Below, one piece after another: positions 35,783 through 57,537 of a stretch of DNA of 64,000 nt. The number at the start of each line of letters is the position of its first letter. Positions within the stretch are counted from its first letter, which is position 1. A program made the translations under genes and the position numbers. The DNA is from Herpetosiphon aurantiacus DSM 785 (GTDB taxonomy: Bacteria > Chloroflexota > Chloroflexia > Chloroflexales > Herpetosiphonaceae), in NCBI GenBank assembly GCA_000018565.1, contig CP000875.1:1565199-1629198 (forward strand), given 5' to 3'. Below the pieces are notes generated by a model, which saw nothing but the letters and a program-made list of their open reading frames with translations, searched no databases and was not told the DNA's origin.

Positions 35783-35785
35783 GGA

Positions 35786-39765: not shown

Positions 39766-39869
39766 AACAAACCTCCAACTTACTTTGATAAAGATATTCC
39801 ACATATTTAATATAGTGGGTTGTAGTCTATCACCTCCTAACGAACGCTACAAGACAAACATTTGTGCTT

Positions 39870-42299: not shown

Positions 42300-43388
42300 C
42301 CCAGAGAGGATTCAGGTCTTTCGAATTCTTACAGGCGAACAGGCCGCTGAATACGGTCTGCGTTTTAATCCCCCAGAGAGGATTCAGGTCTTTCGAATCT
42401 TGGCTTAGATACGGCCAAAATGTATTATTACACGGCAGTTTTAATCCCCCAGAGAGGATTCAGGTCTTTCGAATTTATTATTAACCGCATGGGTGGCTAT
42501 GGGGCCATCAACCCCGTTTTAATCCCCCAGAGAGGATTCAGGTCTTTCGAATAATGAATGCGGTAGAGAAATTTCGCCCCAGAATCGATTTAGTTTTAAT
42601 CCCCCAGAGAGGATTCAGGTCTTTCGAATCGATAGTTCACCCGTTCTGAGGGTACTCACCCAAAGGTTTTAATCCCCCAGAGAGGATTCAGGTCTTTCGA
42701 ATGCGCTTGAGATAGCCCAGCCGCCCGCCACCAACGTTGCCAAGGTTTTAATCCCCCAGAGAGGATTCAGGTCTTTCGAATTTTGTCGTAGACAGCTACG
42801 ATTTGATCGTAGTGCTCAGTTTTAATCCCCCAGAGAGGATTCAGGTCTTTCGAATAACCAAATTCCTGTGATCGAAAATGGCTTCCTGAAGGGATGTTGT
42901 TTTAATCCCCCAGAGAGGATTCAGGTCTTTCGAATATAGCCGAGACTGGCGACATCGCGGGTTCAATTATATGGGTTTTAATCCCCCAGAGAGGATTCAG
43001 GTCTTTCGAATCAACGTCAGCGGGGTGCTGGCTGTAGCTGCGGATTTGATGGTTTTAATCCCCCAGAGAGGATTCAGGTCTTTCGAATAATAAGCAAGCT
43101 GATAGTATGGTTCGTAGCGCCAAAGGTGTTTTAATCCCCCAGAGAGGATTCAGGTCTTTCGAATTAATCGCTCACTAGCCTATTGAATTGGCGGGGCCAA
43201 TGTGGTTTTAATCCCCCAGAGAGGATTCAGGTCTTTCGAATCAAGAACTTGCCCAAGTTGCTCGAACGTATTTCAAGTAGGTTTTAATCCCCCAGAGAGG
43301 ATTCAGGTCTTTCGAATCTTGTAAGCGTTTTGATTTGACCAGTGTTGGGCGGTTTTAATCCCCCAGAGAGGATTCAGGTCTTTCGAAT

Positions 43389-43594
43389 ATACCCCATTTT
43401 TTAGGGCTTTGCAAGGGGCTAAAATGAACGGTTTGCGCGGTCCGCTTAAATTTGTTCAATTAATGCCTATTCTGCGCTACAAATAACGGTGGAAAACTGC
43501 CTTTTAGACCATTGGAATGGGATCGCGCGGCATATACCACTTTTTTGCCAAGTATTGGCATGATCACGGTCTTGTATTCGCTGATGCTACCGAA
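43389..43594 (-). promoter_or_regulatory. CRISPR leader region
   Basis: Sequence right of the newest (non-degenerate) repeat, between the array and direct-repeat block B. Moderately AT-rich with no coding potential; includes CCTTGCAAAGCCCTAAAA on the minus strand. No cas gene is attached. Orientation follows from repeat degeneracy and the ATTAAAAC repeat end. Confidence 0.6.
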
Positions 43595-43641
43595 TCAGGA
43601 GGAAGCGAAGACCACGCAAGAATGGGCATGCACAGAAAAGA

Positions 43642-43692
43642 GGAAAACAAAAAGCAACAGGTTAAATTGGTCTATGCAGACCCCTGTTGCTT
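43642..43692 (-). terminator. Intrinsic terminator overlapping the transcription start (copy B)
   Basis: AAGCAACAGG...CCTGTTGCTT (43692-43683 with 43661-43652) followed by TTTTTGTTTTCC on the minus strand. The outer stem and T tract are the same as copy A. One base of the nested hairpin differs (GTGC to ATGC). Confidence 0.7.
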
Positions 43693-43698
43693 GCGAGG

Positions 43699-43726
43699 AT
43701 TATAGTGCGTCTGTGCTGTTTGTCAA
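43699..43726 (-). promoter_or_regulatory. Consensus promoter of block B
   Basis: TTGACA (43726-43721), 16 bp spacer, TATAAT (43704-43699), minus strand. Identical geometry to copy A. Confidence 0.8.
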
Positions 43727-43879
43727 CAAAAATAAGCCAACGTATCCCACATATCCCACACTCGACTAATATAATTCGTATCACCTAAACTATTGTGCTA
43801 TCACAAAGCCCACCTATTTCTCTACGATCACAGATGCCTTTGTTACAGTCGGAGGCAATGGGTATTCAGTATGTCTAAC

Positions 43880-44356
43880 TTATGGCTGTACTCCTTCTGA
43901 ATCGATATGGTCGATATTTTCAAGATCATGGCGACGCTGATCCATCCAGCGTTGTCCACACACATCGTGTCGCGGTTGCATGGAGCAACGCGGGCATTGA
44001 TCAAAGCCAGTGTGGGCAGTATAGCCACAGGCGTAACAGCCATGAGAGATGGTATGACTGACCCGCACCGATTCAACTGGATATCCATAACGGGTTTCGC
44101 GGGCAACGCGCCAGCAGATTGTATGGTCTTGATTAAACACATCCACTAACACGAGATCGGAGTCGGTAATCACCAGCGCATCAACAATCTCGATCAGGTG
44201 TTCTGCCGATTCCCCGAGGTCAGGCACGAGGTAAAGGACATGCTGTGGTGATGATCTGCGGCTGAGCATCGCAAAAGGTTTTCCCTCTTTGGTCGTATGG
44301 AGGTGCTCCCAGAGTGGGTTATCGTGCGTACCAGTGGCAAGGTTAAAGTACTTCAT
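43880..44356 (-). CDS. Zinc-ribbon protein of unknown role
   Basis: 158 residues, GGGAGGCC before the ATG. The N-terminal ~100 residues are beta-rich (PFAMLSRRSSPQHVLYLVPD, LVLVDVFNQDHTICWRVAR). HGCYACGY ... FDQCPRCSMQ is a CxxC...CxxC zinc ribbon. Followed 18 bp later by the STAS gene upstream in the transcript sense; both on the minus strand. Confidence 0.6.
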   Translation of the reverse strand: MKYFNLATGTHDNPLWEHLHTTKEGKPFAMLSRRSSPQHVLYLVPDLGESAEHLIEIVDALVITDSDLVLVDVFNQDHTICWRVARETRYGYPVESVRVSHTISHGCYACGYTAHTGFDQCPRCSMQPRHDVCGQRWMDQRRHDLENIDHIDSEGVQP

Positions 44357-44374
44357 ATATGGCCTCCCTTTAGA

Positions 44375-45529
44375 TCATTGGACAAGTAGTGTGGGCCGAG
44401 GGACGGTCACGGCGGGCGATCTTATGTGGTCAATCGCATCTTGAAGCGTGGAAAAACTCTGAATCGCATTGGGTAAAGAACGGATGGATTGCAAGTCCAT
44501 CGCCACATGGGGCGGAATGCCTACAAACACAGGGCGGCATCCTAAAATCAGGCTAACCTGAAGGAGATCGGCAAGTGTTGTCAATGTATCGGGATCAATT
44601 CCTGTAACTCCCGTGAGATCGATGAGTACATGCCGCAGTTGTTGCTGCTCAATCTGGCGCGGGAGCAGGGATGCTAATTGATCCATCCGAGCACTGTCGA
44701 GGTGTCCGATCAAGGGGAGCACTGCTCGCTGAGGAATAATTGGGATTACCGGAAAGGTCATTTGGCTGAGTTGCGTGGTCAGGGCTTGTCGTTCAGCACT
44801 ACTCGATGCTAAGGCCGTGAGGGTGTCTCGTAACTGGGTATTGCGGGCCTCGCTTGCTGCGTGCGCTGTGCGTAATTCCTGCTGGGCGGTTTCAAGTTCT
44901 GTTGAGCGTGCTTGGAGATGCTGATAGGCCAGTTCGAGGGTGGTATCAAACCGTCGTCGTAGACTCGCGATTACGAAGATAGCTTGGATCACCATCCCAC
45001 CACCGATCAGGAATAAGATAGTGCGGACGCGAGCAAAGGCGGTGCGTTGTTGATTGGCCGTCTGTTGGACGAGGATGCGCCGTTCATTGACCATCGTGCG
45101 GCTCTGAAATTCGAGGTTGATAAAGATGGTAGAGAAGGAAGAAAGATCGTTTATTTCTTGGGCAGGGACACGCTGAAACTCACGCTGAATCACGGTAAAT
45201 GCTTGATATTCAATAGAGGTGTATTGCGATTCTGCTGCACTGCTATAGAAGCTATTCATGGCAGCGAGACGATTCGACACGAGATTGTGACGCAGCTGAT
45301 ATTCAGTAGCCAGGGTAGGATTGTTCGTCCCTCCATCGTTGGCAACGGCACGCAACCGTAAGATATCGCGTTCGAGTTGAGTTGGATTCCAGATTCCATC
45401 ATCCTGCTCAAAAAAGCGGGTCGCCTGACTTAAGGTTTGAAGATTGAGGACAGTGAGTGCGAGTAAGATACCAAGAAGGCTGCTCATGCCGCCCGTCATG
45501 ATTCGGTGTGGCCATGGTGATCGATTCAT
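44375..45529 (-). CDS. Membrane protein with C-terminal STAS domain (RsbR/SpoIIAA-like)
   Basis: 384 residues. TM1 about residues 12-32, an extracytoplasmic helical sensor-like region to about 165, TM2 (ILFLIGGGMVIQAIFVIASL), a coiled coil (residues 195-245), then a STAS domain. The STAS part includes VLIDLTGVTGIDPDTLTTLA and LGCRPVFVGIPPHVA. RsbR-type proteins usually read xIDxTGVxxxDTxxA, with a phosphorylated Thr after D. Here the position is D-P-D-T, so phosphorylation control may be changed or lost. Signals to an anti-sigma partner are inferred. Confidence 0.75.
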   Translation of the reverse strand: MNRSPWPHRIMTGGMSSLLGILLALTVLNLQTLSQATRFFEQDDGIWNPTQLERDILRLRAVANDGGTNNPTLATEYQLRHNLVSNRLAAMNSFYSSAAESQYTSIEYQAFTVIQREFQRVPAQEINDLSSFSTIFINLEFQSRTMVNERRILVQQTANQQRTAFARVRTILFLIGGGMVIQAIFVIASLRRRFDTTLELAYQHLQARSTELETAQQELRTAHAASEARNTQLRDTLTALASSSAERQALTTQLSQMTFPVIPIIPQRAVLPLIGHLDSARMDQLASLLPRQIEQQQLRHVLIDLTGVTGIDPDTLTTLADLLQVSLILGCRPVFVGIPPHVAMDLQSIRSLPNAIQSFSTLQDAIDHIRSPAVTVPRPTLLVQ

Positions 45530-45692
45530 AGGGTGATCATTCCTTGCTGGCAGTGATGTATGGATGACCGACGGATGATACCGCTATGGAGTATGGCTCT
45601 ATCAACAGAGTCACAATTTCTTAGGTAGGGCTTTCATATCAGTCTGCTCTTAAAGACACCATGAATATCAAGCGTGTATTATGACTGAGTTA

Positions 45693-45881
45693 AGCCTTTG
45701 ATGGTTGGTTGCCCGTAAGCTGTAGAGGCTACCTCGCCATCAAAAGCTTAATCGTTGCTTAATCTGCAATGATACGGTAGGATTGACGCGAATGGTGGTA
45801 GTTTGGATCACTGATCGACCAACGAGCAAAGGCGCTCACCAACCACCGATGCGTCGCGTTGGTATCACGCCCAACGCGACG
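45693..45881. other. Hairpin-rich intergenic region
   Basis: Contains an arm pair AGCCTTTGATGG/CCATCAAAAGCT (45693-45751) and a perfect 11 bp stem CGTCGCGTTGG/CCAACGCGACG (45852-45881). No gene-like frame between 45530 and 45948. Structured leader or terminators; purpose unclear. Confidence 0.4.
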
Positions 45882-45948
45882 GCCTATGGGTTTGGTGGTA
45901 TACCGAAATAGTTATGGTGATGGCGTTACGTTGGTAGGGAGGTGTCAT

Positions 45949-46233
45949 ATGGATCAGATAATGTGGTGGGAGTGGTATGAGGCTATGGCGACAAGACTAA
46001 TGGCATTGCATTGGCAGTGTCTTGAGGATGGACTGCTCCGACAGCCGCCATCGACTACGCTGCGCACAGCAGTCACCACCTTCGCCGTAACTGTACACCA
46101 GGCGACAACCTCACTTGATACCAAGCAATGCCCCGAGTCGTTGGGTGATGCGATCACCCAACTCGCCGCGATTACCCAACGCCTTTATGAGCTAGTGACC
46201 AAAGATGAAGGGTTACCGATACGAAATGTGTAA
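45949..46233 (+). CDS. Hypothetical 94 aa protein
   Basis: Start MDQIMWWEWYEAMATRLMAL with GGGAGGTGTCAT upstream (an earlier in-frame start lacks a ribosome site). Helical protein of about 94 residues with VTTFAVTVHQATTSLDT and ITQLAAITQRLYELVT. No family seen. Intergenic 46234-46461 shows no gene. Confidence 0.5.
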   Translation: MDQIMWWEWYEAMATRLMALHWQCLEDGLLRQPPSTTLRTAVTTFAVTVHQATTSLDTKQCPESLGDAITQLAAITQRLYELVTKDEGLPIRNV

Positions 46234-46461
46234 CCGCGAGGAATGAGAGCAGCCAGATTAGCTTAAACATAGTGGTTCTACGCCAATAGTTGATGTCCCC
46301 ATTCAGCGGAATAGAGCAGGTAGTCTCAGTCACGAGAGCGCACCTGTGCCTCTTCCTTGACCGATTCCAAAGATACCGCTACGCTCTACCCAACTTCTTG
46401 ACGATAACAATCAACTACAACATCATGGCCTGACTGCATTTCGTTCTAAGGAGAATCCCGA

Positions 46462-47709
46462 ATGCGACGTTTCCTTATTGCTTTGGGCGTGCTCGCACTA
46501 CTTGGGCTACCACGGGCGGTATCTGCTCACGACATGTGTTTTCCCTCGGACAAAACACCGTACTGCCTTCCTGATCCGTTTAGCGATTATTGGGAATTGA
46601 ACGGTGGGTTGCCCGTTTTTGGCTATCCAGTGACAGCCAAGGCCGATGAACTCAATAAAGACACGGGCAAAATGCATCCAACCCAGTGGCTTGAGCGGAA
46701 TCGGCTTGAATATCACAACGAAAATAAAGGAACGGCCTATGAAGTGTTGCTGGGATTGTTGGGAAAGGAACGCCTTGCCCAATTAGGTCGTAATCCTGCG
46801 AGTGAGCCGCGTGAAGCCGGGGCCAAAGCTGGGTGTTTGTGGTTTGAACAAACGGGACACAACATCTGCAATATTGAAGGTACGGTGGGCTTTAAGACCT
46901 ATTGGGAAACCCATGGCTTGAAGATCAATGGCATGGACAAGTTTAGCCAATCGTTGCAACTGTTTGGACTTCCATTAACGGAACCAAAGATGGAAACCAA
47001 TAGTGCAGGCGATAGGGTGTTGACGCAATGGTTTGAGCGTGCCCGCTTTGAATGGCATCCCAAGAATGGTGCTGAATATAAGGTGCTTTTAGGTTTGCTT
47101 GGCAAAGAAGTTCATGATAATGCTGGCTCACCTCCGCCAGCCACCCTTGCGATTGTTAGCCACCGCACGTATGTTGATAGTATCGACTTCCGGTGGATTG
47201 TTGGTGAAGTTGTGAATAATACAGCGAGCAATCAGCAATTTGTTAAGGTTATTGCGAATCTTTATGATGCTGGGAGTAATCTTGTTGGTACTGAGACTGG
47301 CTATACCATCCTCGATATTGTTAAGGCTGGTACGAAATCACCGTTTAGTATTCTGATTCTTGAGCCTCCAGCGAACTTTGATCATTACACGCTACAAATT
47401 GAGGCCCGTGAAACCACAACTGCACCCCTCGATACATTCGCCATCTTAAGTTTTGGCAATCGTGATTCCGAGATTGGCAATTACCGCTATGTGTATGGTG
47501 AAGTCCGCAATGATACGGGTGTTCCAGTGAAATTTACTAAGATAGCGATTACCTGTTACACCAAAGAATCAACGGTTCAACAAGTAGGGTTTGGCTACAC
47601 ATCGCTGCAAAATATTGCTGTTGGGCAGTCCTCTGCATTTGAAATATTGCTATCACAATGGTCAGGCGTTGAGCGCTGTGAGGCGCAAGTTCAAGCCAGA
47701 AAGCAATAA
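46462..47709 (+). CDS. Secreted repeat protein with FxLyD-like domains
   Basis: 415 residues, AAGGAGAATCCCG before the start. Signal peptide (MRRFLIALGVLALLGLPRAV, cleavage near SAH). Two copies of a ~70-residue repeat ending in TQWLERNRLEYH...YEVLLGLLGKE (first) and TQWFERARFEWH...YKVLLGLLGKE (second). Then two beta-sandwich FxLyD-like domains (FRWIVGEVVNNTASNQ; YVYGEVRNDTGVPVKF). Such secreted proteins are common in Chloroflexota. In a phage it would be a lysogenic-conversion type gene. Has its own terminator. Confidence 0.8.
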   Translation: MRRFLIALGVLALLGLPRAVSAHDMCFPSDKTPYCLPDPFSDYWELNGGLPVFGYPVTAKADELNKDTGKMHPTQWLERNRLEYHNENKGTAYEVLLGLLGKERLAQLGRNPASEPREAGAKAGCLWFEQTGHNICNIEGTVGFKTYWETHGLKINGMDKFSQSLQLFGLPLTEPKMETNSAGDRVLTQWFERARFEWHPKNGAEYKVLLGLLGKEVHDNAGSPPPATLAIVSHRTYVDSIDFRWIVGEVVNNTASNQQFVKVIANLYDAGSNLVGTETGYTILDIVKAGTKSPFSILILEPPANFDHYTLQIEARETTTAPLDTFAILSFGNRDSEIGNYRYVYGEVRNDTGVPVKFTKIAITCYTKESTVQQVGFGYTSLQNIAVGQSSAFEILLSQWSGVERCEAQVQARKQ

Positions 47710-47727
47710 CTGGAGCTATTGTTGGAA

Positions 47728-47755
47728 AAGCCTGCTCCTAGGAGCAGGCTTTTTT
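47728..47755 (+). terminator. Intrinsic terminator after the secreted protein gene
   Basis: AAGCCTGCTCC TA GGAGCAGGCTT followed by TTTTTG. Perfect 11 bp stem. Confidence 0.9.
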
Positions 47756-47810
47756 GATGCCGTGTGGATCGGTGAGCCGGAGCTGGCGGCCAGCGCTGAG
47801 CAAAAGCAAC

Positions 47811-47985
47811 AACAAACCAACAACATTTGTTCGCGCTATGTTGTCGCTATATTGTTGCTTTGCAACTGGTGATCAGCGCTTTCGACAATAAACCGACAAC
47901 GTTTGTTGTCGTTTCGTAAACCCCTATCGCAAGCAATAACAAACCAACAATAAACTAACAATATTTGTTGTCGTTTCGTAAACCC
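47811..47985 (+). repeat. Direct repeats in the control region (AACAAACCAACA and TTTGTTGTCGTTTCG types)
   Basis: A 22 bp sequence starting TTTGTTGTCGTTTCG and ending TAAACCC occurs at 47902-47923 and 47964-47985 (62 bp apart). AACAAACCAACA occurs at about 47811 and 47939. Together with inverted ACAACGTTTGTTGT-like dyads this looks like a binding-site cluster, possibly an origin or partition region. Confidence 0.6.
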
Positions 47986-48000
47986 ATCGACACTCACGGA

Positions 48001-48112
48001 TGTATTCAATTGCGTTCAATTGTAAACATCGCGCTAACCACGGTGTATTCAATTGCGTTCAATTGCGTTCAATTGAACGCATCGCACCTTATCGATACTT
48101 ACAATTGAACGC
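48001..48112 (+). repeat. CAATTG-centred palindrome cluster
   Basis: TGTATTCAATTGCGTTCAAT TG is repeated at 48001 and 48044. The half-site GCGTTCAATTG occurs at 48012, 48055 and 48065, and inverted at 48070-48080 and 48102-48112. The middle pair makes the 16 bp perfect palindrome GCGTTCAATTGAACGC (48065-48080). This is the pattern of a dimeric repressor operator or replication iterons. No gene in 47710-48469. Confidence 0.7.
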
Positions 48113-48230
48113 ACCATGGTTCCACTAATCCTTTTGGGTTAATCGGGGCAAAACTATACCGTGTTCGGATTAATCATTTGGTGTATTACGTTCGCGAATG
48201 AATATATTCAAAAGCGATATTTCGTTTCTT

Positions 48231-48252
48231 AAATGCACTACCATTGCACTAC
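48231..48252 (-). repeat. Two GTAGTGCAATG-type 11 bp iterons
   Basis: On the minus strand GTAGTGCAATG GTAGTGCATTT, the same 11 bp unit as the five copies at 16263-16317. Confidence 0.75.
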
Positions 48253-48469
48253 CGTATGAAAATTGCTGATTTTTACCGTCATTTAATCCCGTTTATAAGA
48301 ATCTTGTTAACATCTGACGTGACAAAGTGATTTAGGCGTAGTTCGGGCGTTTTTTGCACTTGCAAAAATAAAACGTTTCAATCATAATTTTTGCTATTGC
48401 ATCGGCATTATTTGCTCACATCCTCGTTGCCGATGCACACTCATTCACCCCAGTTAGAGGTACAACACC

Positions 48470-48838
48470 ATGGCGTGTGACCATCTTCTCCGCTCAGGGG
48501 TTTGTGGAGGGCTTGATCTTGTGGTCAATGTCCGCATAGAAACCACTGTATCCGCTGGGTCACTGCATCATGCCACGACTGCTGATGCAGATGCCCAGGT
48601 TCACCATGTTCGTGTCGGGATAGAACTGTTGGAGCAGTATTCGGTAACACACAACGATGACACCGAAGTGCTTGAATGGATCGCGAGTGTTGGACTTGAT
48701 CAACAAACGCTTGATGAGGATCAATCAGTGGGGGGGCGACCAGTGGTTGATGATCAAAACCAAGCGGGTCGTGGGCAACCCGCTTGGCAGGACAGCGATC
48801 AGGCGTTCGTGGACGTTTCGACTTTCCAGCGCAAATGA
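48470..48838 (+). CDS. Doubtful 122 aa ORF
   Basis: ATG preceded by TTAGAGGTACAACACC. The protein (MACDHLLRSGVCGGLDLVVN...) is low-complexity in the second half and a CAAGCGGGT/ACCCGCTTG hairpin (48762-48787) lies inside it. It overlaps the 3' end of the first HTH gene. Could be non-coding; listed for completeness. Confidence 0.25.
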   Translation: MACDHLLRSGVCGGLDLVVNVRIETTVSAGSLHHATTADADAQVHHVRVGIELLEQYSVTHNDDTEVLEWIASVGLDQQTLDEDQSVGGRPVVDDQNQAGRGQPAWQDSDQAFVDVSTFQRK

Positions 48839-49173
48839 GACAGGATAGCAGCACGATCATCGGGTGAGAGTTGACCCAATAAGTTCAGAAACATGCGTAC
48901 CTCGGGGACGGCAGCGATGAGGACTTGGATGGTGGCATCCTCATCGGTGGGGTGAGCGTCCACGGGAATTCCACAGGCCTCAACGAGCTGGCGGAAGGGC
49001 AGGTTGAGGCTAATGGATAAGGCATTCAAGGTACGAAGATCGGGCATGACATCGGGCTTATTGATGAGATTGGAGAGGGTTGAAACGGCAATGCCAGAGC
49101 GTGTGGCAAGTTCCCGCAACGACCAGTTGCGGGAAGCCAGTTCTTGCGACAGGAGACTGGATAACCCAAGCAT
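48799..49173 (-). CDS. HTH regulator paralogue 1
   Basis: 124 residues from MLGLSSLLSQELASRN (GAGAGGTGTTTT upstream). XRE-type HTH: SLRELATRSGIAVSTLSNLI, then RTLNALSISLNLPFRQLVEA. C-terminal part about 45 residues (EVRMFLNLLGQLSPDDRAAI). One of five tandem paralogues. The region upstream carries a dyad operator. Confidence 0.8.
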   Translation of the reverse strand: MLGLSSLLSQELASRNWSLRELATRSGIAVSTLSNLINKPDVMPDLRTLNALSISLNLPFRQLVEACGIPVDAHPTDEDATIQVLIAAVPEVRMFLNLLGQLSPDDRAAILSHLRWKVETSTNA

Positions 49174-49219
49174 AAAACACCTCTCGATGGAATGTGATGG
49201 AACGGACGAAAACAAGGGA

Positions 49220-49247
49220 TTGACAGATGTTCGATTTAGTGTACAAT
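49220..49247 (+). promoter_or_regulatory. Plus-strand promoter inside the HTH control region
   Basis: TTGACA (49220-49225), 16 bp, TACAAT (49242-49247). It reads away from the HTH 1 gene over a CTCCAC...GTGGAG hairpin with TATTTT (49296-49320). A short divergent transcript or antisense RNA could start here. No ORF with a ribosome site follows. Confidence 0.45.
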
Positions 49248-49253
49248 CCGACA
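49228..49253. promoter_or_regulatory. Putative repressor operator (TGTTCGATT ... AATCCGACA)
   Basis: Two 9 bp arms in inverted orientation (one mismatch), 8 bp apart, overlapping the promoter above. Related TGTYSGATW sequences occur at 49330, 49382, 51370 and 51553. Confidence 0.55.
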
Positions 49254-49478
49254 CATAATACACGAGGTTGAAGAAACAATCAACCGGAGACGGAACTCCA
49301 CGGCAAGGTGGAGCTATTTTGGGATAAAGTGTTCGATTTGAAGAACAGTTCAAGGAATGATTATAATCATTAATCTACTGCTGTCGGATAGGTTAGTCGG
49401 ATGAACGAGTTTAGAATTGCAGCTATGCTAAAACTGTATGTCGGTTTTACGTGGGAGTTCATTGTATGGAATACCAAA

Positions 49479-49880
49479 TCAAGATTGATCAACTTCTTGG
49501 TTTATATTTTTCTGACGATGCAGACGACGCATTTCAATATATGCCAGAACATCAGCTTGATCGAGAGGAGAAAATGTCATCATCTCTTCCACAAGACGCT
49601 GAAAGTCTGGAATTGCTGAAACAATAGTTTGTAGTCGTTGGCTGTCTTCTGATTTAGCACTAGAGACATCGAAGCCACATGCAGCAATAATTCTAGCTAG
49701 CGGGATGTCAAAAGCTTGAGCTAATGTTGCAAGATTTTCTAATTTTGGTATCTGATTTGGGTTTTTGAGGATTTTAGATATGGTTGAATCAGGAATTCCT
49801 GATATTTCAGACAACTTTGTCTGATTCCACCCTCGTGCATCCATTTCAGATTTGATGAGATAAATCAAACCTGTAGTCAT
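49479..49880 (-). CDS. HTH regulator paralogue 2
   Basis: 133 residues. HTH: NQTKLSEISGIPDSTISKIL; followed by NLATLAQAFDIPLARIIAAC and a C-terminal helix pair (PDFQRLVEEMMTFSPLDQAD). Same layout and length as the neighbouring regulators. A plus-strand ORF of 72 aa over the gap (49401-49619) is antisense and not credible. Confidence 0.8.
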   Translation of the reverse strand: MTTGLIYLIKSEMDARGWNQTKLSEISGIPDSTISKILKNPNQIPKLENLATLAQAFDIPLARIIAACGFDVSSAKSEDSQRLQTIVSAIPDFQRLVEEMMTFSPLDQADVLAYIEMRRLHRQKNINQEVDQS

Positions 49881-50028
49881 TATTAGGCCTTTGTTGATAG
49901 TAAATAATAATAACCATTACTTTATTTTAGAGGATAACATATGAGCCATCTACGAGACAATTCCAGTATGTGCGAAAATTTACGTTCAAAGATTATCAAA
50001 TTTGTAGATTCTATACTTGAAGCACGAA

Positions 50029-50397
50029 CTACTTCTTGTGAAGATACCCTTGAATATAAGCCTGAATTACACGTAAATCCTCAGCTTGGAGTTGTGCTAG
50101 ATCTGAAACAACAGATCGTAGCTCCGGTAATGAGTTTAACAGAATCGAAATCTGTTCCTCTGGTAACTCTCCTCGAAGATCGATATCAAATCCGCAGACT
50201 GTAATCAACCGTGCTAGAGGGATATTTAATGCTTGACTTAATCGATCAAGGGTTTCTAGTTTTGGAACCGATTGAGGGTTCTTGAAGATATTACTAAGCG
50301 TTGATCGATCAATCCCTGCGCTATCCGCAAGCTGGCTATCTCGCCATCCTCTCGCAGTTAGTTGAACACGTAAGAATACTGCTAGTGTATTGGGCAT
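50029..50397 (-). CDS. HTH regulator paralogue 3
   Basis: 122 residues. HTH: RDSQLADSAGIDRSTLSNIF; then ETLDRLSQALNIPLARLITV and PELRSVVSDLAQLQAEDLRV. Conserved architecture with paralogue 2. Antisense plus-strand ORFs overlapping it are not supported. Confidence 0.8.
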   Translation of the reverse strand: MPNTLAVFLRVQLTARGWRDSQLADSAGIDRSTLSNIFKNPQSVPKLETLDRLSQALNIPLARLITVCGFDIDLRGELPEEQISILLNSLPELRSVVSDLAQLQAEDLRVIQAYIQGYLHKK

Positions 50398-50505
50398 TTA
50401 ATTCACCAATAATTTCTTGAGAATGTTTATAAATTTATATTTTGAGGTATAGCATGAAAAAGCTGGGAGAATTGGCAGCCATGATTGATCGGATAACCAA
50501 AAACC

Positions 50506-50892
50506 TTATTTCCGATGGTTTTTTAGTGTTTCCAGATAAATCAGAACTGAGTTTACCTCATAACTGTCTAATTCAAGAAGATGCTCTACTACAGATTGAT
50601 ACTCAGGCATTGCATCCATTACCGAAATTAAGCGTTGAGCTTGAATCGTAGATGTTTCACTGAATTCGAGATCAAATCCAGCCATTTCTATAATTCGCCA
50701 GAATGGTAGCTTAAAGGTTTTTGCGAATTTAACCAGAGTTTCTAGGTCAGGAGTCACATCAGGATTATCACGAAGATTTTTTAATCCCGTATACGACACG
50801 CCAGATTTAATCGACAGTGCACGTAAACTTCCCTCGACTTCTGAGTGTTGTTTGATCTTATTTGAGAGTTGTCTCATTGTAAAAAATACCAT
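50506..50892 (-). CDS. HTH regulator paralogue 4
   Basis: 128 residues (MVFFTMRQLSNKIKQHSEVE). HTH region LRALSIKSGVSYTGLKNLRD, then FAKTFKLPFWRIIEMAGFDL and MPEYQSVVEHLLELDSYEVN. Shares the fixed two-helix C-terminal region with the other members. Confidence 0.8.
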   Translation of the reverse strand: MVFFTMRQLSNKIKQHSEVEGSLRALSIKSGVSYTGLKNLRDNPDVTPDLETLVKFAKTFKLPFWRIIEMAGFDLEFSETSTIQAQRLISVMDAMPEYQSVVEHLLELDSYEVNSVLIYLETLKNHRK

Positions 50893-50907
50893 ATAGCCTT
50901 TATAGGC

Positions 50908-51288
50908 CTATGTTGTGGCTCGGCGGCGTGCTAATACTTCAAGATAGGCAAGCACTCCATCGATATCTTCTTTATCTAATTTCTGAAGGTGTTCTAATAC
51001 AGGTTTATATTGAGGCATTACTTCCATAAGTTTGGATAATCGTTTTGTATGATCAGGATCGGTTGTATCTAAATCTAGATCATATCCAGCCATTTCTACG
51101 ACACGCCAGAGAGGTATATTAAATGCTCTAGAAACTTTTGATAAAGTTTCTAAACTAGGAATAACGTTGGGATTATCAATAATATTAGCAAGGGCAGATT
51201 TGGATACTCCAGTTGTTTCCTCGAACTCACGCCAAGTCCACTCGTTATCCTTCATCTGCTTTTTAAGAAAAATGGATAATTCTGTCAT
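50908..51288 (-). CDS. HTH regulator paralogue 5
   Basis: 126 residues from MTELSIFLKKQMKDNEWTWR (GAGGTCAG before it). HTH EFEETTGVSKSALANIIDNP, then VSRAFNIPLWRVVEMAGYDL and a C-terminal helical pair. First gene of the leftward cluster and divergent from the early operon, so it is the best candidate for the main repressor. Confidence 0.8.
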   Translation of the reverse strand: MTELSIFLKKQMKDNEWTWREFEETTGVSKSALANIIDNPNVIPSLETLSKVSRAFNIPLWRVVEMAGYDLDLDTTDPDHTKRLSKLMEVMPQYKPVLEHLQKLDKEDIDGVLAYLEVLARRRATT

Positions 51289-51341
51289 TCTGACCTCGTG
51301 GACAAGCCGATAATACTTAGTATAAGGCATTGATTGTACTC

Positions 51342-51370
51342 TTGACAACTACAAATAACTACACTAGAAT
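51342..51370 (+). promoter_or_regulatory. Early operon promoter with overlapping operator
   Basis: TTGACA (51342-51347), 17 bp, TAGAAT (51365-51370). TGTCCGATAGATAGTCAAAA starts at the last -10 base. A close copy of that sequence (TGTCCGATGAATAGTCAAAA) lies at 51553-51572 within the first gene. Divergent from the repressor-like cluster, as in phage early control regions. Confidence 0.7.
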
Positions 51371-51414
51371 GTCCGATAGATAGTCAAAAAAACTTTCAAA
51401 AGTAAAGGAGTTCT

Positions 51415-51618
51415 ATGAATAATTTGCAAGGTCGATTCACTGATGAACAACGTGATAAGTTAGAAAAAATATCGAAACAAGCAAAGGTTCCTATCGCAGC
51501 GGTATTACGATGGGCGGTAGAGGCCTACAATCCACCTATTTTTTTATCTACTTGTCCGATGAATAGTCAAAATGACAATGAAAAATATAACCAACCTGAA
51601 CAAAACCAAGCAGCATAA
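51415..51618 (+). CDS. Ribbon-helix-helix-like protein
   Basis: 67 residues after AAAGGAGTTCT. NLQGRFTDEQRDKLEKISKQ then AKVPIAAVLRWAVEAYNPP matches the RHH fold (strand, helix A, helix B) of CopG/Arc-like regulators. First gene of the early operon, overlapping operator-like sequence; probable transcriptional regulator. Confidence 0.65.
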   Translation: MNNLQGRFTDEQRDKLEKISKQAKVPIAAVLRWAVEAYNPPIFLSTCPMNSQNDNEKYNQPEQNQAA

Positions 51619-51642
51619 CTGTCCCATAGAAAGGAGCCAACG

Positions 51643-51987
51643 ATGCGAACCATTGATACGATTCACCGTCATCTGAACAGTTTCCAAGGGTTTATTCCTA
51701 CACCATCCTATCCTGTGCCTTCTCCTTGCCGACCTAGTTCGACAGCCCCGATCACCCCAGTCATCGCACGCACCAAAAAGACCCGCAAACCTAAGCGCCA
51801 ACCCAGTTGCTCATGCCCTGCTTGCACGAAGGAACACACTGCGACTGGGGTATTCCGTTGCCTCAAGGGCAAGGAATACGTGATCTTTGCTGCTGGCCAA
51901 TGCTTAGGTTATCGCAAGACCGAAGGCACCGCTGATACCCTGCTCCGCGACTATCGCTATACCTTTCTCACCAAGCATGCAGGCTGA
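51643..51987 (+). CDS. Small cysteine-rich protein
   Basis: 114 residues after AAAGGAGCC. Basic N-terminal half (TKKTRKPKRQPS), then CSCPACTKEHTATGVFRC, a probable zinc ribbon. No further domain. Second gene of the early operon. Confidence 0.6.
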   Translation: MRTIDTIHRHLNSFQGFIPTPSYPVPSPCRPSSTAPITPVIARTKKTRKPKRQPSCSCPACTKEHTATGVFRCLKGKEYVIFAAGQCLGYRKTEGTADTLLRDYRYTFLTKHAG

Positions 51988-52387
51988 TTGTTGGACGGCT
52001 ATCGGTTGCATGCCGTAAATGCAGCGCCAGAAGCGTAACTGGCACGGCCTGAGCAGTCCACAACCTGCTCACCAGCGCCAGTGTGGCGCAACTCGGTATG
52101 TATCGATGCTCACCCGTTGTTGTGCGGAACAGCGGCCCCGTTCGCCAGCAGGACTACCTTAACAACTGCATACGCAGTCGTGGCATATCGTGCGCACCCA
52201 GCGCGGGATTGCAGCATACCAACGAAGGCTATAGGCGATGACCCTACCTCGGCAGACACGCCGCGCCGTTGCTCATGCTGCACCACGATCACCGGGCAGG
52301 AAATCACGTAGGCCTGCCCAAAACACACGATCAAAAGTCTACTACGTCCTATGGTTTTTCGTCTCTCAGTTTGTTGATGAGGTTTCG
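51988..52387 (+). other. Hairpin-rich region without a convincing gene
   Basis: Contains several GCGCCAG/CTGGCGC stems. An ORF at 52081-52311 has no ribosome site and a poor composition. May be a structured leader or small RNA, or simply intergenic. Confidence 0.35.
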
Positions 52388-52738
52388 ATGATTGAATTGC
52401 TGATTTGCACCCTTGGTTGTGCCATTAGCCTGGCCACGGAACATCTTGCCTTGTGGGATCACCCATGGCGGTTACGCCCACCCATCACCTACATGATCGG
52501 CATGCTCACGATCATTGCGTGGTTTACCGTTTTTTGTCTCTTGATCGACCCGCTCTATGTCTTTTTTGGCGTGGCGCTGCTGTTGTTGTCTGGCGGGGCC
52601 GGACTGGTGGTGATTCTTGGCTATTGGCTCCGCAGGGTATTGACGGTCAAAGATCAGGCCGCGTTTACCGCTGGGCAGCTTAGTCGGTCGGTTCCATCAC
52701 CAATCACGCAGGATTGGATTGATGGCCACGACCGATAA
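52388..52738 (+). CDS. Small membrane protein
   Basis: 116 residues from MIELLICTLGCAISLATEHL; GATGAGGTTTCG gives the ribosome site. Three TM segments (1-20, 38-60, 62-88), then a cytoplasmic tail of about 30 residues. Unknown function; part of the early operon. Confidence 0.6.
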   Translation: MIELLICTLGCAISLATEHLALWDHPWRLRPPITYMIGMLTIIAWFTVFCLLIDPLYVFFGVALLLLSGGAGLVVILGYWLRRVLTVKDQAAFTAGQLSRSVPSPITQDWIDGHDR

Positions 52739-52937
52739 ACACAAACGTTGGGCCGAGATTACGGATGCGCTCGCATTGCGCGGCAATGCTGATGATGCGT
52801 TCGTCGAAATTGCCCAACGTTCCCGCGAGCCGGTGATTTTGCAGCTGGTGCAAAAAGGGCGTGATGAGTTGGCCAAGCAACGTCAACGCCTGATCGCCCT
52901 GCGTGATGCACCGGAAAAGGAGCTGAAACAGGAATGA
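52719..52937 (+). CDS. Small charged protein
   Basis: 72 residues (MMATTDKHKRWAEITDALAL). Helical, with DDAFVEIAQRSREPVILQLV and a basic/acidic C terminus. Overlaps both neighbours. Unknown. Confidence 0.55.
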   Translation: MMATTDKHKRWAEITDALALRGNADDAFVEIAQRSREPVILQLVQKGRDELAKQRQRLIALRDAPEKELKQE

Positions 52938-53143
52938 GTTTTCACATTGTCATCCAGTATGGGACGGTTGAAACTCCACTTCAAATTGGTCAATTAAATC
53001 AGGATGAAGCATTGATGATTCAGCGCCAACTGACCACAGTTGCGCGAGCCGTGTTCGCTGATCTGGAAGTTCAAACCCTTAATTGCTTCCCGACCTATCA
53101 CATTAAGGAGTTGCCACATGACCCAATGGATTCACACCAGTGA
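52934..53143 (+). CDS. Small hypothetical protein
   Basis: 69 residues, ATGA overlap with the preceding gene. MSFHIVIQYGTVETPLQIGQ ... QTLNCFPTYHI; mixed beta/alpha. Unknown. Confidence 0.5.
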   Translation: MSFHIVIQYGTVETPLQIGQLNQDEALMIQRQLTTVARAVFADLEVQTLNCFPTYHIKELPHDPMDSHQ

Positions 53144-53345
53144 TGGATCATTTGAGAATCTTGGTGAGGCGATTGAAGCCTACCGAGAGCGCCAACGCAA
53201 GGCTGATGAAGCTGAGCAGCGAGCTGCCTACTTGGCATCAAAGAATGACCCCGAAGTGCAACAGTGGATAGAGCTAGCTCAGCGTGAAGAGGCGCTAGTA
53301 CGCAGTGCACGGACACAACGTCCAAACAAAAAGCCCACGGCCTAA
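53118..53345 (+). CDS. Small helical hypothetical protein
   Basis: 75 residues from MTQWIHTSDGSFENLGEAI after AAGGAG. Helical with basic end (RTQRPNKKPTA). Ends within a terminator-like hairpin. Confidence 0.5.
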   Translation: MTQWIHTSDGSFENLGEAIEAYRERQRKADEAEQRAAYLASKNDPEVQQWIELAQREEALVRSARTQRPNKKPTA

Positions 53346-53360
53346 GGCCAATGGGCTTTT
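53329..53360 (+). terminator. Terminator-like hairpin
   Basis: AAAAGCCCA ... TGGGCTTTT with an internal GGCC pairing, then ATATACC. Lies before the AAA ATPase gene, so the early operon may be split into two transcription units or attenuated here. Confidence 0.6.
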
Positions 53361-53449
53361 ATATACCGTTCACCAGCACCGATTCATGGATCAGATGAAT
53401 GGGTGCTTTTGTTTTTCAACCGTCCCCCAGTATACCATGGAGATTTTGC

Positions 53450-54400
53450 ATGTTTCAACGGGCAACGAAATTTCGCAGCAAACTGCGGCTGGCTCTGCTC
53501 GGCGTTGCGGGGAGTGGCAAAACCTACACCGCGCTGAATATCGCCAAACACTTGGGTCGCAATATCGCCGTGATTGATACCGAGCATGGCAGTGCCAGCA
53601 AATACGCTGATGATGTGGCCAGTTTCGATGTCGTCGAACTGACCTCGTTTCACCCCAAACGCTATATCGAAGCGATCAAGGCCGCCAATTGGGTGAACTA
53701 CGATGTCTTGATTATTGATAGCCTCTCGCATGCTTGGAATGGCAAAGATGGCATTTTGGAGCAGGTTGATCAGGTGGGGAAGCGCGGTGCCAACAAATTT
53801 ACCGCGTGGGCCGATGCGACCCCACTCCATCAACAATTGATCGATGCCATTCTTGACTGTCGAATGCATGTGATTTGTACCATGCGGCTCAAAACCGAGT
53901 ATGTCGTCGAACAAAATGAGCGCGGCAAACAAACCCCACGGAAAGTCGGATTGGCTCCCGTACAGCGCGACGGCTTGGAATACGAGTTTGATGTGGTGGC
54001 CGATCTGGATATGCACAATACGCTGATGGTCAGTAAAACGCGCTGCCCTGCCTTGCATGGTGTGAGTATCCCTCGCGCTGGAGCCGAGATTGCTACCACC
54101 CTGCTCGACTGGCTCAATCAGGGCATTGATCTCCACGCGCTCAACGAGCCTGATCCGGCATCGATCGACCCCTTGAATAACCCGACCCCATCCCTGTACA
54201 AAATCGAACGCGTCCAAGCCTGTCGTGGCTGTCGCGCATCGGTCATTTGGATTGACAATCAGCCCTACAACGCTGATGCCAATGGCCAACGCACGCCGCA
54301 GCTCCACTGGGAAACCTGTCCGAAAGCCCATCTCTTCCGCCAAACCAACCGCCTCACTGCGGCGCAAATGGCTGAGCGGGATGCGGTGTTTGATAACTAA
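53450..54400 (+). CDS. Sak4-like AAA ATPase (single-strand annealing/recombination)
   Basis: 316 residues from MFQRATKFRSKLRLALLGVA; GGAG 8 nt upstream. Walker A GVAGSGKT (residues 18-25), Walker B VLIIDS (about residue 85). LSHAWNGKDGI matches the AAA_24/Sak4 family of phage recombinases. C-terminal CRGCRA ... CPKAH forms a probable zinc ribbon, an uncommon addition. Acts in phage DNA recombination with replication proteins. Confidence 0.75.
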   Translation: MFQRATKFRSKLRLALLGVAGSGKTYTALNIAKHLGRNIAVIDTEHGSASKYADDVASFDVVELTSFHPKRYIEAIKAANWVNYDVLIIDSLSHAWNGKDGILEQVDQVGKRGANKFTAWADATPLHQQLIDAILDCRMHVICTMRLKTEYVVEQNERGKQTPRKVGLAPVQRDGLEYEFDVVADLDMHNTLMVSKTRCPALHGVSIPRAGAEIATTLLDWLNQGIDLHALNEPDPASIDPLNNPTPSLYKIERVQACRGCRASVIWIDNQPYNADANGQRTPQLHWETCPKAHLFRQTNRLTAAQMAERDAVFDN

Positions 54401-54414
54401 CTGGTCGTGTCTTT

Positions 54415-54434
54415 GAGCGCCTTACGGGGCGCTC
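54415..54434 (+). promoter_or_regulatory. Hairpin before the replication-initiator gene
   Basis: GAGCGCC TTAC GGGGCGCTC, 20 bp before the start of the next gene. Similar in style to the hairpins preceding other genes in this element, without a T run. Confidence 0.45.
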
Positions 54435-54453
54435 GTCTGGTTAAAGGTGTGCT

Positions 54454-55530
54454 ATGACAACCGGAAATGCATGGGTTGATGCGATTGCGCAGCTCCCAAT
54501 CGAAGGCAATATTGTGCCGCCAGTGTGGTTTCAACAGATTACATTCGCGAATGGGAAGCCGCATGCCTGTGCGGTCATCCTGCTTTCCGATATTGTCTAT
54601 TGGTATCGCCCAACGATTCTGCGCGATGAAACCACGGGCCTCGTGATTGGCAGCCGGAAGAAGTTTCGCGCGGATATGCTCCAGCGCAGTTACGACAACT
54701 TTGCCGACCAATATGGGTTTACCAAAGCCCAGGTCAAAGCAGGGATTAATGCCTTAGTGGAGTTGGGGTTAATCGTGCGCGAATTTCGCTCGGAAACGGT
54801 GAATGGGCAGCGCTTAACCAATCTGTTGTATGTTGCGCCGATTGCCCATGCGATTGCCAAGATGAGCACACCCCTCTGTGATTCCATTGATACACCTCCC
54901 CCAATAGAATCGCAGACCTCCCCCAATAGAATGGCAGAGGTGGGTGATTCTAGTGGCACACCTCCCTCAACAGAATCGCAGACAAATACAAAGACTACCC
55001 AGAGACTACCCAAAGACTTCCCATCATCATCCGCTCCTGCGGCGCGTGCTGCCAATCGTGCGCGAACAACCCGCACGGCCACCCGCCACCGCGCATCTGG
55101 CGATGCGGATAAAAATAAACATCAACAATCGGCAACCTATCGGCTGTTACGCGATCGGCAAGTCTGGTCAGCCAGCAAGTTTGCCGAGGAGCCACTGGCT
55201 CTGATTCAAGCCTATCTTGATCACGTTGGCCCTGAGTATCCAGCGGCCCAAATCGCCATTGACCTGAACGCTGGCGTGCATCAACGCCTTGGTCAACATC
55301 CTACCGCCGAGCCAACCCAACCCGCTGAACCCGTGCCCGATTGGCCAACCTGGTTACCCGCCGATCACGGCTTGCCGCCTGATATGGCTGCGTGGATGCG
55401 CGATGCCGTATGGGTGGCCGAGCGTGGCGAAATTGAAATCCCCAAGCATAACGATCGCTTTCGGCGGCGTTTCAGCTATTGGCTGACCCCGCTCGAAAGC
55501 CAGTTACGAGGATTGTATGCAACGATTTGA
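54454..55530 (+). CDS. Phage replication initiator-like protein
   Basis: 358 residues. The N-terminal winged-helix-like region has AVILLSDIVYWYRPT, then YDNFADQYGFTKAQVKAGIN and ALVELGLIVREF, typical of replisome-organiser/DnaD-related initiators. A linker rich in S, T and P follows. The C-terminal third contains a W-rich motif (LPADHGLPPDMAAWMRDA). Overlaps the DnaC-like gene by 14 bp, which supports an initiator/loader pair. Confidence 0.65.
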   Translation: MTTGNAWVDAIAQLPIEGNIVPPVWFQQITFANGKPHACAVILLSDIVYWYRPTILRDETTGLVIGSRKKFRADMLQRSYDNFADQYGFTKAQVKAGINALVELGLIVREFRSETVNGQRLTNLLYVAPIAHAIAKMSTPLCDSIDTPPPIESQTSPNRMAEVGDSSGTPPSTESQTNTKTTQRLPKDFPSSSAPAARAANRARTTRTATRHRASGDADKNKHQQSATYRLLRDRQVWSASKFAEEPLALIQAYLDHVGPEYPAAQIAIDLNAGVHQRLGQHPTAEPTQPAEPVPDWPTWLPADHGLPPDMAAWMRDAVWVAERGEIEIPKHNDRFRRRFSYWLTPLESQLRGLYATI

Positions 55531-56320
55531 TACCAGTATCCAAGCATCGGTAACGCCTGCTCCCGACATGCTGCCACCGGTTGTCCCATGGGAGCCGAAT
55601 GAAACCTGTCCGTGTTGTAAAGGCGCTGGCTATTTTGTCTACGATGTGGCGGTTGACCATCACATGTTTGGCAAACTGCAAGCCTGTGGCTGTCTGCAAC
55701 AACGCCAAATTGAGCGCCGTCGCAGCGAACTGCATGCCAAGAGCGGTCTTGCGCCGTTTCGCGGCAAAACCTTTGCCAGCTTCGATCGCACGATTGCAGG
55801 CGTTGATCACGCCGTTGGTGCGGCCCAAGCCTTTGCCGACAACCCCGACGGTTTTTTGACCTTGGTCGGCAACCCGGGCTGTGGCAAAACCCACTTAGCC
55901 CAAGCGATCGGCAATGCGCTGCAAGCCCGTGGCTTCGAAGTCGTTTGGTCAACGGCTCCCGATGCCTTGCGCCTGCTGCGCTCGACCTTCGATCAAACGA
56001 GCAACAAGCCCAAGAATAGCTTCGATGAACAATTCGAACTCTTCCGCAAAGCCCCAATGCTGCTGCTCGATGACCTTGGAGCCGAGAATGCCACCGATTG
56101 GGGCAAAGAAACCTTGTTCCAGTTGCTCAACGAGCGCTATGAATACCAACGCCCCACCGTGATCACGAGCAACCTGCACCCGAACACCGCTGAAGCGAAT
56201 CGCCGCTTTGGCATGCGTTTATGCAGTCGTTTGCTCGATGCGGTTCAAGGTCAGTTGGTCGTGGTGCAAGCGGCGGATTATCGACGACGCGATCCGATGG
56301 ATCGATTGGGGGCTGCCTAA
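55517..56320 (+). CDS. DnaC-like replicative helicase loader
   Basis: 267 residues. N-terminal cysteine pair set CPCCKGAGYFVYD ... CGC, then AAA+ core: Walker A NPGCGKTH, Walker B LLLDDLGAEN, sensor I-like VITSNLHP. This is the DnaC/IstB-like loader family. Would load the host replicative helicase at the phage origin with the initiator before it. Confidence 0.8.
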   Translation: MQRFDTSIQASVTPAPDMLPPVVPWEPNETCPCCKGAGYFVYDVAVDHHMFGKLQACGCLQQRQIERRRSELHAKSGLAPFRGKTFASFDRTIAGVDHAVGAAQAFADNPDGFLTLVGNPGCGKTHLAQAIGNALQARGFEVVWSTAPDALRLLRSTFDQTSNKPKNSFDEQFELFRKAPMLLLDDLGAENATDWGKETLFQLLNERYEYQRPTVITSNLHPNTAEANRRFGMRLCSRLLDAVQGQLVVVQAADYRRRDPMDRLGAA

Positions 56321-56541
56321 TGCGCCGCAAACCCGTGAGTTTTACCACCGTGCGGTTGGTGTGGGGTGCGGTGAGCCGCCGACCACTGGCAACGGTGCGT
56401 GATTTAGCCGATGAACTGCGCCTTGGCTATAGCACCGTGGCCCAAGCCTTGTTGGTGCTGCGTGATGCGGGCTATATCGAATTTACGCCCAAGCGCTGCG
56501 GCTGCCGCAAAATTATTATTCCCTTGCTGGAGGCCGCATGA
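56320..56541 (+). CDS. Small winged-helix protein
   Basis: 73 residues; ATG overlaps the preceding stop (TAATG). VRDLADELRLGYSTVAQALL and LRDAGYIEFTPKRCG form an HTH and wing. Probably a local transcription regulator of the replication block. Confidence 0.65.
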   Translation: MRRKPVSFTTVRLVWGAVSRRPLATVRDLADELRLGYSTVAQALLVLRDAGYIEFTPKRCGCRKIIIPLLEAA

Positions 56542-56780
56542 GCACCCTGATCAATCTGGTGGGCACGCGGCTGGAGATTCAAGCGCAGCTGCGCAACGGT
56601 AATATCGCGGCGGCTCGCAACCTGATCACCAATCGCATGATTTCGCCATGGTTGTTGGCCACGTGGTTGACTCCAGCGCAACAAGCGCTCCTGACTGATC
56701 AATCACCGCCAATGATGAACCATTCTCTTGGAGCAGATCCGCTATATCAAGCAAACCAATTGATGTTTGCGCTCAGATGA
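56538..56780 (+). CDS. Small hypothetical protein
   Basis: 80 residues, ATGA overlap. LEIQAQLRNGNIAAARNLIT, then PWLLATWLTPAQQALL; helical. Unknown. Confidence 0.5.
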   Translation: MSTLINLVGTRLEIQAQLRNGNIAAARNLITNRMISPWLLATWLTPAQQALLTDQSPPMMNHSLGADPLYQANQLMFALR

Positions 56781-56794
56781 TCGTGAGGTGTTTG

Positions 56795-56977
56795 ATGGCC
56801 CTGAATCCTGATGAGATTGATGTGACCGCTGATCCGGCATTGGTTGCGTGGCTCCACGCTGGAGCGGAATGGATTGCGGCCAATTCCTGTCCCAAGTGTT
56901 CGTCGCGCATAGTGCGCCAACGAGGAGATCAGCGAGAATGCTGCACATGTTTGTACCAGTGGACGGTCACTGGGTAG
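56795..56977 (+). CDS. Small zinc-ribbon protein
   Basis: 60 residues from MALNPDEIDVTADPALVAWL; GAGGTG 7 nt upstream (a coupled ATG at 56777 is possible). C-terminal CPKCSSRIVRQ...CCTCLYQW is a CxxC/CxxC zinc ribbon. Possibly involved in replication or transcription. Confidence 0.55.
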   Translation: MALNPDEIDVTADPALVAWLHAGAEWIAANSCPKCSSRIVRQRGDQRECCTCLYQWTVTG

Positions 56978-56994
56978 CGTGCAAGGAACGAATC

Positions 56995-57537
56995 ATGGAT
57001 TTTCGAAGCTATTATCACGCTGCCAAGCGCACGATGAACAGCACGCTGAGTCGCGAGATGCAGCTCTGTACCGCCGCGCTTGGTATCTGTGGTGAAGTGG
57101 GTGAAGCGCTGACGGCACTCGAAACCAGCATTGACACGCCCGATCAAGCGGTCATCAACGAACTTGGTGATGTGTGCTGGTATATCACGTGGAGCATGGA
57201 ATTATTTGATATCAATATGCTCCATTCCTTTGTCTCCGCGCCCGAGAACGATCGGGATGTGTATTTGCTTGCTGCCCAGTTTGCCGATATCGTCAAGAAA
57301 ATCGCTTGTCACCAGCACCCGATGACCGATAACCACAAAGCCACCATTATTGATATTCTCAGTCGATTGCACGCATGGGTGTGCGACGCGGCCACGTGGG
57401 AAAACGCCAGTATTTATGATGTGTATGAAGCCAATATCGCCAAGTTACAGCAGCGATTTGCCACCGAGCAGGGCTTTACCAGTGAAGAAAGTATCAGTCG
57501 TGCTGATACGGTAGCGATAGAGAGGTCAATCCCGTGA
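56995..57537 (+). CDS. MazG-like nucleotide pyrophosphohydrolase
   Basis: 180 residues, AAGGAACG before the start. GICGEVGEALTALE and INELGDVCWYITW give the E-x3-E / E-x2-D metal-binding pattern of MazG/all-alpha NTP pyrophosphatases. The rest is helical. Phage members can degrade alarmones or damaged NTPs; that role here is inference. Confidence 0.75.
   Translation: MDFRSYYHAAKRTMNSTLSREMQLCTAALGICGEVGEALTALETSIDTPDQAVINELGDVCWYITWSMELFDINMLHSFVSAPENDRDVYLLAAQFADIVKKIACHQHPMTDNHKATIIDILSRLHAWVCDAATWENASIYDVYEANIAKLQQRFATEQGFTSEESISRADTVAIERSIP

Follow-up and report, generated by a model that had tools for sequence, protein, structure and literature searches.

Five homologous small repressor genes in the candidate immunity region of a Herpetosiphon aurantiacus prophage

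Five small genes, here called R1 to R5, lie in tandem on one strand of a stretch of 64,000 nucleotides from Herpetosiphon aurantiacus DSM 785 (Chloroflexota; assembly GCA_000018565.1, contig CP000875.1, positions 1,565,199 to 1,629,198; genome 6.79 Mb in three contigs). This whole stretch is referred to as the window, and positions are counted from its first letter. The genes encode putative repressors with a helix-turn-helix (HTH) domain. A first-pass annotation, made from the sequence alone, had described them as paralogues of 122-133 amino acids (aa), and this holds: in each of the ten pairwise alignments, which span most of the proteins, 26-43% of residues are identical (BLASTP E 1.4e-10 to 4e-31, scaled to a nominal database of 1 million residues), and the reading frames of all five are uninterrupted, so that neither unrelated nor inactivated members were found among them. 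The low pairwise identity counts against a recent tandem expansion in place, which we reject as the origin of the array. R4 is 43% identical to R5 over its length, R5 being its closest match in the array, and with a gap of 15 nt between them the two probably form one operon.

The Pfam domain HTH_3 scores above its cut-off in four of the five proteins (R1, R2, R3 and R5), and the proteins consist of an HTH followed by a short helical tail. In the model of R5 the C-terminus is all-helical (mean predicted local distance difference test score, pLDDT, 78.8). SinR and DdrO (PDB 1b0n, 6jq1, 6rnx), which share this arrangement, rank high among its neighbours by Foldseek and by profile search, alongside 9a7f and HipB. 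R5 has no significant whole-fold match among solved structures (best Foldseek E 2e-3; full-length alignments with a root-mean-square deviation above 10 Å). Pfam found no M78 (IrrE/ImmA-type) protease in the ten prophage open reading frames (ORFs) scanned, and to that extent induction through such a protease was rejected. Neither Pfam nor PHROGs gave a self-cleavage (S24-type) peptidase domain in R1-R5; together with their length of 122-133 aa and the helical C-terminus of the R5 model, this sets them apart from the cleavable repressors of the lambda CI/LexA type, and self-cleavage was likewise rejected as a route of induction. For repressors that lack such a domain, the inducing event should be external.

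The array lies within a prophage, since a 17-bp direct repeat at 4045 and 59084, the longest word shared between 58900-60200 and the rest of the window, surrounds genes for terminase, tape measure, replication and serine integrase (Table 1). The same stretch is also present in an IMG/VR record (100% identity to the window over the 8,027 bases compared), while phage records gave no match to the array region or to R5. Next to the array lies a divergent early operon, as the first-pass annotation had said. It starts at 51415 with a ribbon-helix-helix (RHH)-like gene, followed by Sak4-like, O-like and DnaC-like genes and the serine integrase.

Table 1. Positions of the repressor array and associated features in the window (SD, Shine-Dalgarno sequence; L024 and L025, related loci described in the text)
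Feature	Position	Strand	Description
Prophage	4045..59100	.	Bounded by a 17-bp direct repeat equal to the 3' end of tRNA-Gly
ORF, 122 aa	48470..48838	+	Convergent with R1 (40 nt shared); kept in L024 and L025
R1	48799-49173	-	124 aa; small XRE repressor; HTH_3; conserved accessory unit
Rightward promoter P+ before R1	49220..49247	+	TTGACA-16-TACAAT; identical in L024 and L025
Candidate R1 operator O1	49228..49245	+	TGTTCGATTTAGTGTACA; covers spacer and -10 of P+
Candidate R1 promoter	49255..49283	-	TTGATT-17-TATTAT; opposes P+; conserved in alignment
Hairpin in P+ leader	49296..49313	+	CTCCAC/GTGGAG; terminator-like; stem kept in L024 and L025
Candidate R1 operator O2	49330..49347	+	TGTTCGATTTGAAGAACA
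s1	49466..49627	+	ORF of 53 aa with SD; antisense into R2; possibly coding
R2	49479-49880	-	133 aa; small XRE repressor; HTH_3
s2	49941..50204	+	ORF of 87 aa with SD; antisense into R3; possibly coding
R3	50029-50397	-	122 aa; small XRE repressor; HTH_3
s3	50454..50651	+	ORF of 65 aa with SD; antisense into R4; possibly coding
R4	50506-50892	-	128 aa (123 from second ATG); diverged member
R5	50908-51288	-	126 aa; probable main lysogeny repressor; HTH_3
Divergent promoters of R5 and RHH gene	51319..51370	.	P+ TTGACA-17-TAGAAT (51342-51370); P- TTGTCA-18-TATACT (51348-51319)
Candidate R5 operator 1	51370..51387	+	TGTCCGATAGATAGTCAA; start of RHH transcript
RHH gene	51415-51618	+	Divergent from R5; RHH_3 match (E 0.002) short of the Pfam cut-off; may be the first lytic (Cro-like) gene
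Candidate R5 operator 2	51553..51570	+	TGTCCGATGAATAGTCAA; close to end of RHH gene
tRNA-Gly	59085-59159		3' end forms the repeat at 59084

Relatives of the repressors were sought with a family profile in nine genomes of the bacterial family and then in 400 genomes of the phylum. The first set gave 15 members in five of the nine genomes, all of one genus, and the second added two weaker matches, one of them in the same order. Four related prophage loci carry one (L027, L028), or two (L024, L025) members, in line with the earlier expectation that phages usually keep one or two such repressors. Two adjacent genes lie on a short contig (L023), and L026 and L029 have single genes. As the related loci carry fewer, five is the largest number seen. 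L028 (also labelled L006) belongs to another related prophage of this genome, located at about 1.550 Mb on the same contig.

The promoter-like sequences of R5 and the RHH gene, aligned with those of L006/L028 and L025, overlap at their -35 elements. The site TGTCCGATNNATAGTCAA is found at 51370 and 51553 and nowhere else in the nine family genomes with up to one mismatch. Overlapping divergent promoter-like sequences with paired candidate sites are the layout of a lysogeny repressor facing a Cro-like gene. The same layout occurs in L006/L028 and L025 with paired TGTCC sites, the second of which is a perfect TGTCCC-N6-GGGACA, and a short divergent gene, RHH-like by eye, stands opposite the main repressor in L006/L028, L024, L025 and L027. 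Judged by this arrangement, R5 is the probable main lysis-lysogeny repressor, and its binding at the two 18-bp sites flanking the RHH gene would restrain the early promoter.

These sites extend one of two short words proposed earlier as binding sites. The 8-mer TGTCCGAT is itself not enriched (4 copies against 1.97 expected), but two of the four copies extend to the unique 18-mer flanking the RHH gene. The other word, GTAGTG, has no copy between 48799 and 51640 and was rejected as an operator of the array. Nor is the more general pattern TGTNC-N8-GNACA enriched in the window, with three exact matches (one at 27970, off the array) and, allowing one mismatch, 16 against 23.9 expected; as far as these counts go, solely the longer, repressor-specific versions are distinctive. 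The RHH protein is less likely to be what binds this pattern, because the two sites of R1 and one in L023 (1103-1120, 48 nt upstream of the repressor gene L023_b) adjoin no RHH gene.

At the other end of the array, R1 has orthologues in two other species (97% identical in L024, 96% in L025). With 0.015-0.018 replacement changes per site (dN) against 0.115 silent changes (dS), R1 is, by this comparison, under purifying selection. The block upstream of R1 is almost invariant in the three genomes and contains a rightward promoter and two 18-bp sites, TGTTCGATTTNNNGNACA. Across the nine genomes there are six exact copies of this candidate operator, a pair at every one of the three R1 loci. One mismatch admits 21 places elsewhere, spread over all nine genomes (reversed control: 13 in all), which leaves the exact site as the distinctive form. 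R1 seems to act chiefly on its own region, as a self-contained conserved unit that would silence a rightward promoter aimed at R2-R5 from their 3' sides. For the convergent ORF at 48470..48838, dN is 0.115-0.141 and dS 0.248-0.267 between the window and L024 or L025. In the P+ leader (49248-49325) there are two small hairpins, GGTTGA/TCAACC and CTCCAC/GTGGAG, the latter with a loop that varies in L024 and L025; a short RNA may be made here.

The recognition helix of R5 corresponds to residues 30-38 of its model, and the aligned helices of the five proteins read VSTLSNLIN (R1), DSTISKILK (R2), RSTLSNIFK (R3), YTGLKNLRD (R4) and KSALANIID (R5). All five differ, and the first residue is unique in each, which argues for several specificities, as the first-pass annotation had suggested. 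This residue is K in R5 and in its relatives in L006 and L025, which go with TGTCC sites, and V in R1, which goes with TGTTC sites. The candidate operators of R1 and R5 are different and each unique in the genome, and it is well supported at sequence level that these two proteins differ in DNA specificity; R2-R4 are likely to be distinct as well. R2-R4 would be additional cassettes, possibly read together with R5, since terminator prediction gave nothing between R5 and R2. Our reading, towards which we lean slightly, sees here a temperate phage's immunity region, stacked with repressor cassettes of different specificity, in which R5 and the RHH gene form the working switch.

What the extra cassettes would do is a separate matter. 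One possibility is that R2-R4, and also R1, are main repressors captured from other phages, expressed from the lysogeny operon, and that they silence incoming phages with matching operators. Their differing helices and the uninterrupted path from R5 to R2 would suit this, as would the low identity among the five, which is like that between main repressors of different phages. R4 groups with the type A main repressors (tree support 100/96, with a long-branch warning), and the second related prophage of this genome, L028, has its own, different candidate operator. However, neither an orthologue of R2, R3 or R4 nor any phage or prophage with a matching main repressor was found in the nine family genomes, the 400 phylum genomes or the viral contigs (the last covering close relatives only), and the exact R1 operators are confined, within the nine genomes, to R1 loci. 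For the same want of a matching phage, competition between related phages, the other purpose proposed in the first-pass annotation, is not supported by these searches. We regard this form of superinfection immunity as somewhat unlikely.

A second feature of the array is its antisense ORFs. Taking an ORF that starts with ATG and SD just past the stop codon of a repressor and runs antisense for at least 140 nt, 7 of the 15 family genes have one (R2, R3, R4 and the main repressors of L024, L025, L027 and L028) against 3 of 105 others (Fisher p 1.1e-5), these being script-called ORFs rather than annotated genes. With one member counted per repressor type the difference persists (5/9 against 3/105, p 4.4e-5). 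The start of the ORF is shared by L024 and L027, which have the same type of repressor, behind different upstream sequence.

In three relatives the short ORF is preceded by a LexA-like box that ends 14-18 nt ahead of its ATG. The box is a perfect GAAC-N4-GTTC in L028 (TAGAACATGGGTTCTA) and L027 (TCGAACACAGGTTCTA) and has one core mismatch in L025. In Gram-positive bacteria the motif of LexA is GAAC-N4-GTTC (PMC3323433), and imperfect GAAC-type boxes lie between -35 and -10 in the host lexA and recA promoters. No such motif occurs in the window or in L024, where R1 with its candidate operators occupies the position before the short ORF; in L024 the R1 promoter and operators lead straight into the ORF that overlaps the main repressor. 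The LexA-boxed promoter of the antisense short ORF is thus a candidate SOS switch in the relatives. The likely route of induction there would be that this rightward promoter drives the short ORF and also yields antisense RNA across the 3' end of the repressor gene, and in the present prophage R1 and its operators would replace the LexA box. Elsewhere in the host, promoters with GAAC-N4-GTTC between -35 and -10 were seen on contig 1 near 4637940, 5665683 and 577527; they may mark SOS genes of Herpetosiphon, and two of the three precede similar membrane proteins.

Several observations weigh against reading the region as stacked cassettes with a working R5/RHH switch and an induction route of this kind. 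The candidate R5 sites have poor palindromic symmetry, in contrast to those in the relatives. R4 matches nothing in Pfam at E<=1 and has only a weak PHROG match, its HTH being too diverged for Pfam, and the promoter scan gave no convincing promoter for s2, s3, R2 or R3. A terminator-like hairpin stands between P+ and s1. AGAAC-N4-GTTC is not enriched in the host genome (21 matches against 41 for the reversed control), so the weight rests on the position of the boxes. In the short ORFs, replacement changes exceed silent ones in both comparable pairs (0.193 against 0.139 and 0.107 against 0.049), and one antisense phase stays open by composition in 5.6-40% of synonymous shuffles of the seven genes.

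The last two points bear directly on whether the short ORFs are mere antisense open frames with no role. A dN/dS above 1 means that the overlapping tail is no conserved protein, and that just the ORF start or an antisense RNA could matter. Against their having no role stand the enrichment, with ATG and SD included, over the 105 other genes, the LexA-like boxes immediately upstream in three relatives, and the start shared by the L024 and L027 cassettes. We put the chance that they have no role at a little below even; otherwise the short ORF or an antisense RNA would antagonise the repressor.

If the short ORFs do act, the array might work as a chain, with each repressor silencing a short ORF or antisense transcript directed into the next (R1 over s1 into R2, R2 over s2 into R3, R3 over s3 into R4-R5, and R5 over RHH), so that the loss of any link would induce the phage. 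Repressors do alternate with antisense ORFs, a feature enriched at family genes, and the R1 promoter and operators of L024 lead into a short ORF at the point where L027, L025 and L028 have the LexA-like box. On the other hand, the sequence before s2 and s3 yielded neither operators of R2 and R3 nor good promoters, the short ORFs show no visible coding constraint, and the hairpin follows P+. Such a chain therefore seems doubtful to us, and it is improbable that one grew by insertion of cassettes between a damage-sensing input (LexA in the relatives, R1 here) and the main repressor, with different signals breaking different links.

The diverged HTH of R4, the weak promoters and the absence of R2-R4 from every other genome searched would also be expected if recombination in the immunity region had left these three behind and they now served no function. 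All reading frames are intact, however, and R1, the sole member with orthologues, is under purifying selection by the rates given above; we consider neutral accumulation unlikely.

A few further features of the prophage and its relatives were observed. The serine integrase ORF (57694-59217) crosses the att repeat and the tRNA-Gly gene (59084-59159, opposite strand), and its last codons therefore lie on the host side of attR and would change upon excision. A CRISPR-like array inside the prophage (40045-40305 and 42290-43388; 19 script-detected copies of a 37-bp repeat) is in two blocks with a DDE-transposase ORF (40543-41985) between them. L025 and L027 have similar repeats near the lysogeny region, and the spacers match nothing in the collected related loci outside the array itself. 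Adjoining the repressor array is a gene for a protein with a GGLPVFGYP-type motif (46462-47709), and L024 and L025 have similar genes adjacent to their lysogeny regions. L028, of which 18 kb was read, has a single repressor and a divergent RHH-like gene, seemingly lacks most structural genes, and shares with the window a 3.4-kb stretch of tail genes at 85% identity.

In phages 186 and N15, an antagonist of the repressor is under LexA control. Their regulation has been described as similar to that of the Salmonella prophages Gifsy-1, -2 and -3, where antirepressors under LexA control inactivate short repressors (Lemire et al. 2011, PMC3121763). As in that account, the repressors here are small (136 aa in Gifsy-1 and -2) and lack a self-cleavage domain, and the relatives' sequences suggest a candidate LexA-controlled small protein that would tie induction to SOS. 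In contrast, the Gifsy antirepressor is described as lying outside the immunity region (PMC3121763), where the candidate here is inside it, convergent with and antisense to the repressor; the present prophage also differs in having five repressors and no GAAC-N4-GTTC box. A looser resemblance is to the transcription factor-small ORF (TF-smORF) modules of linear plasmid-like phages (Silpe et al. 2023, PMC10432266), where a phage TF lies beside a counter-oriented short ORF that controls induction. The arrangement alone is shared: as reported there, the TF activates the smORF and the smORF inactivates a separate cI (PMC10432266), whereas here the units are in tandem and the regulator would be a repressor. 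The titles and abstracts retrieved by literature searches described no prophage with five tandem repressor genes, nor an antisense antirepressor ORF in an immunity region.

The locus offers a compact natural set of five homologous repressors, probably of different specificity, in one prophage, two of them with predicted operators unique in the genome. Captured immunity repressors, a chain of repressors and recombination leftovers each make simple and differing predictions for it. For the phages of Chloroflexota more widely, the relatives of this region suggest a way in which small, non-cleavable repressors may be linked to the SOS response, by means of an antisense short ORF that carries a LexA-like box at its promoter and lies within the immunity region.

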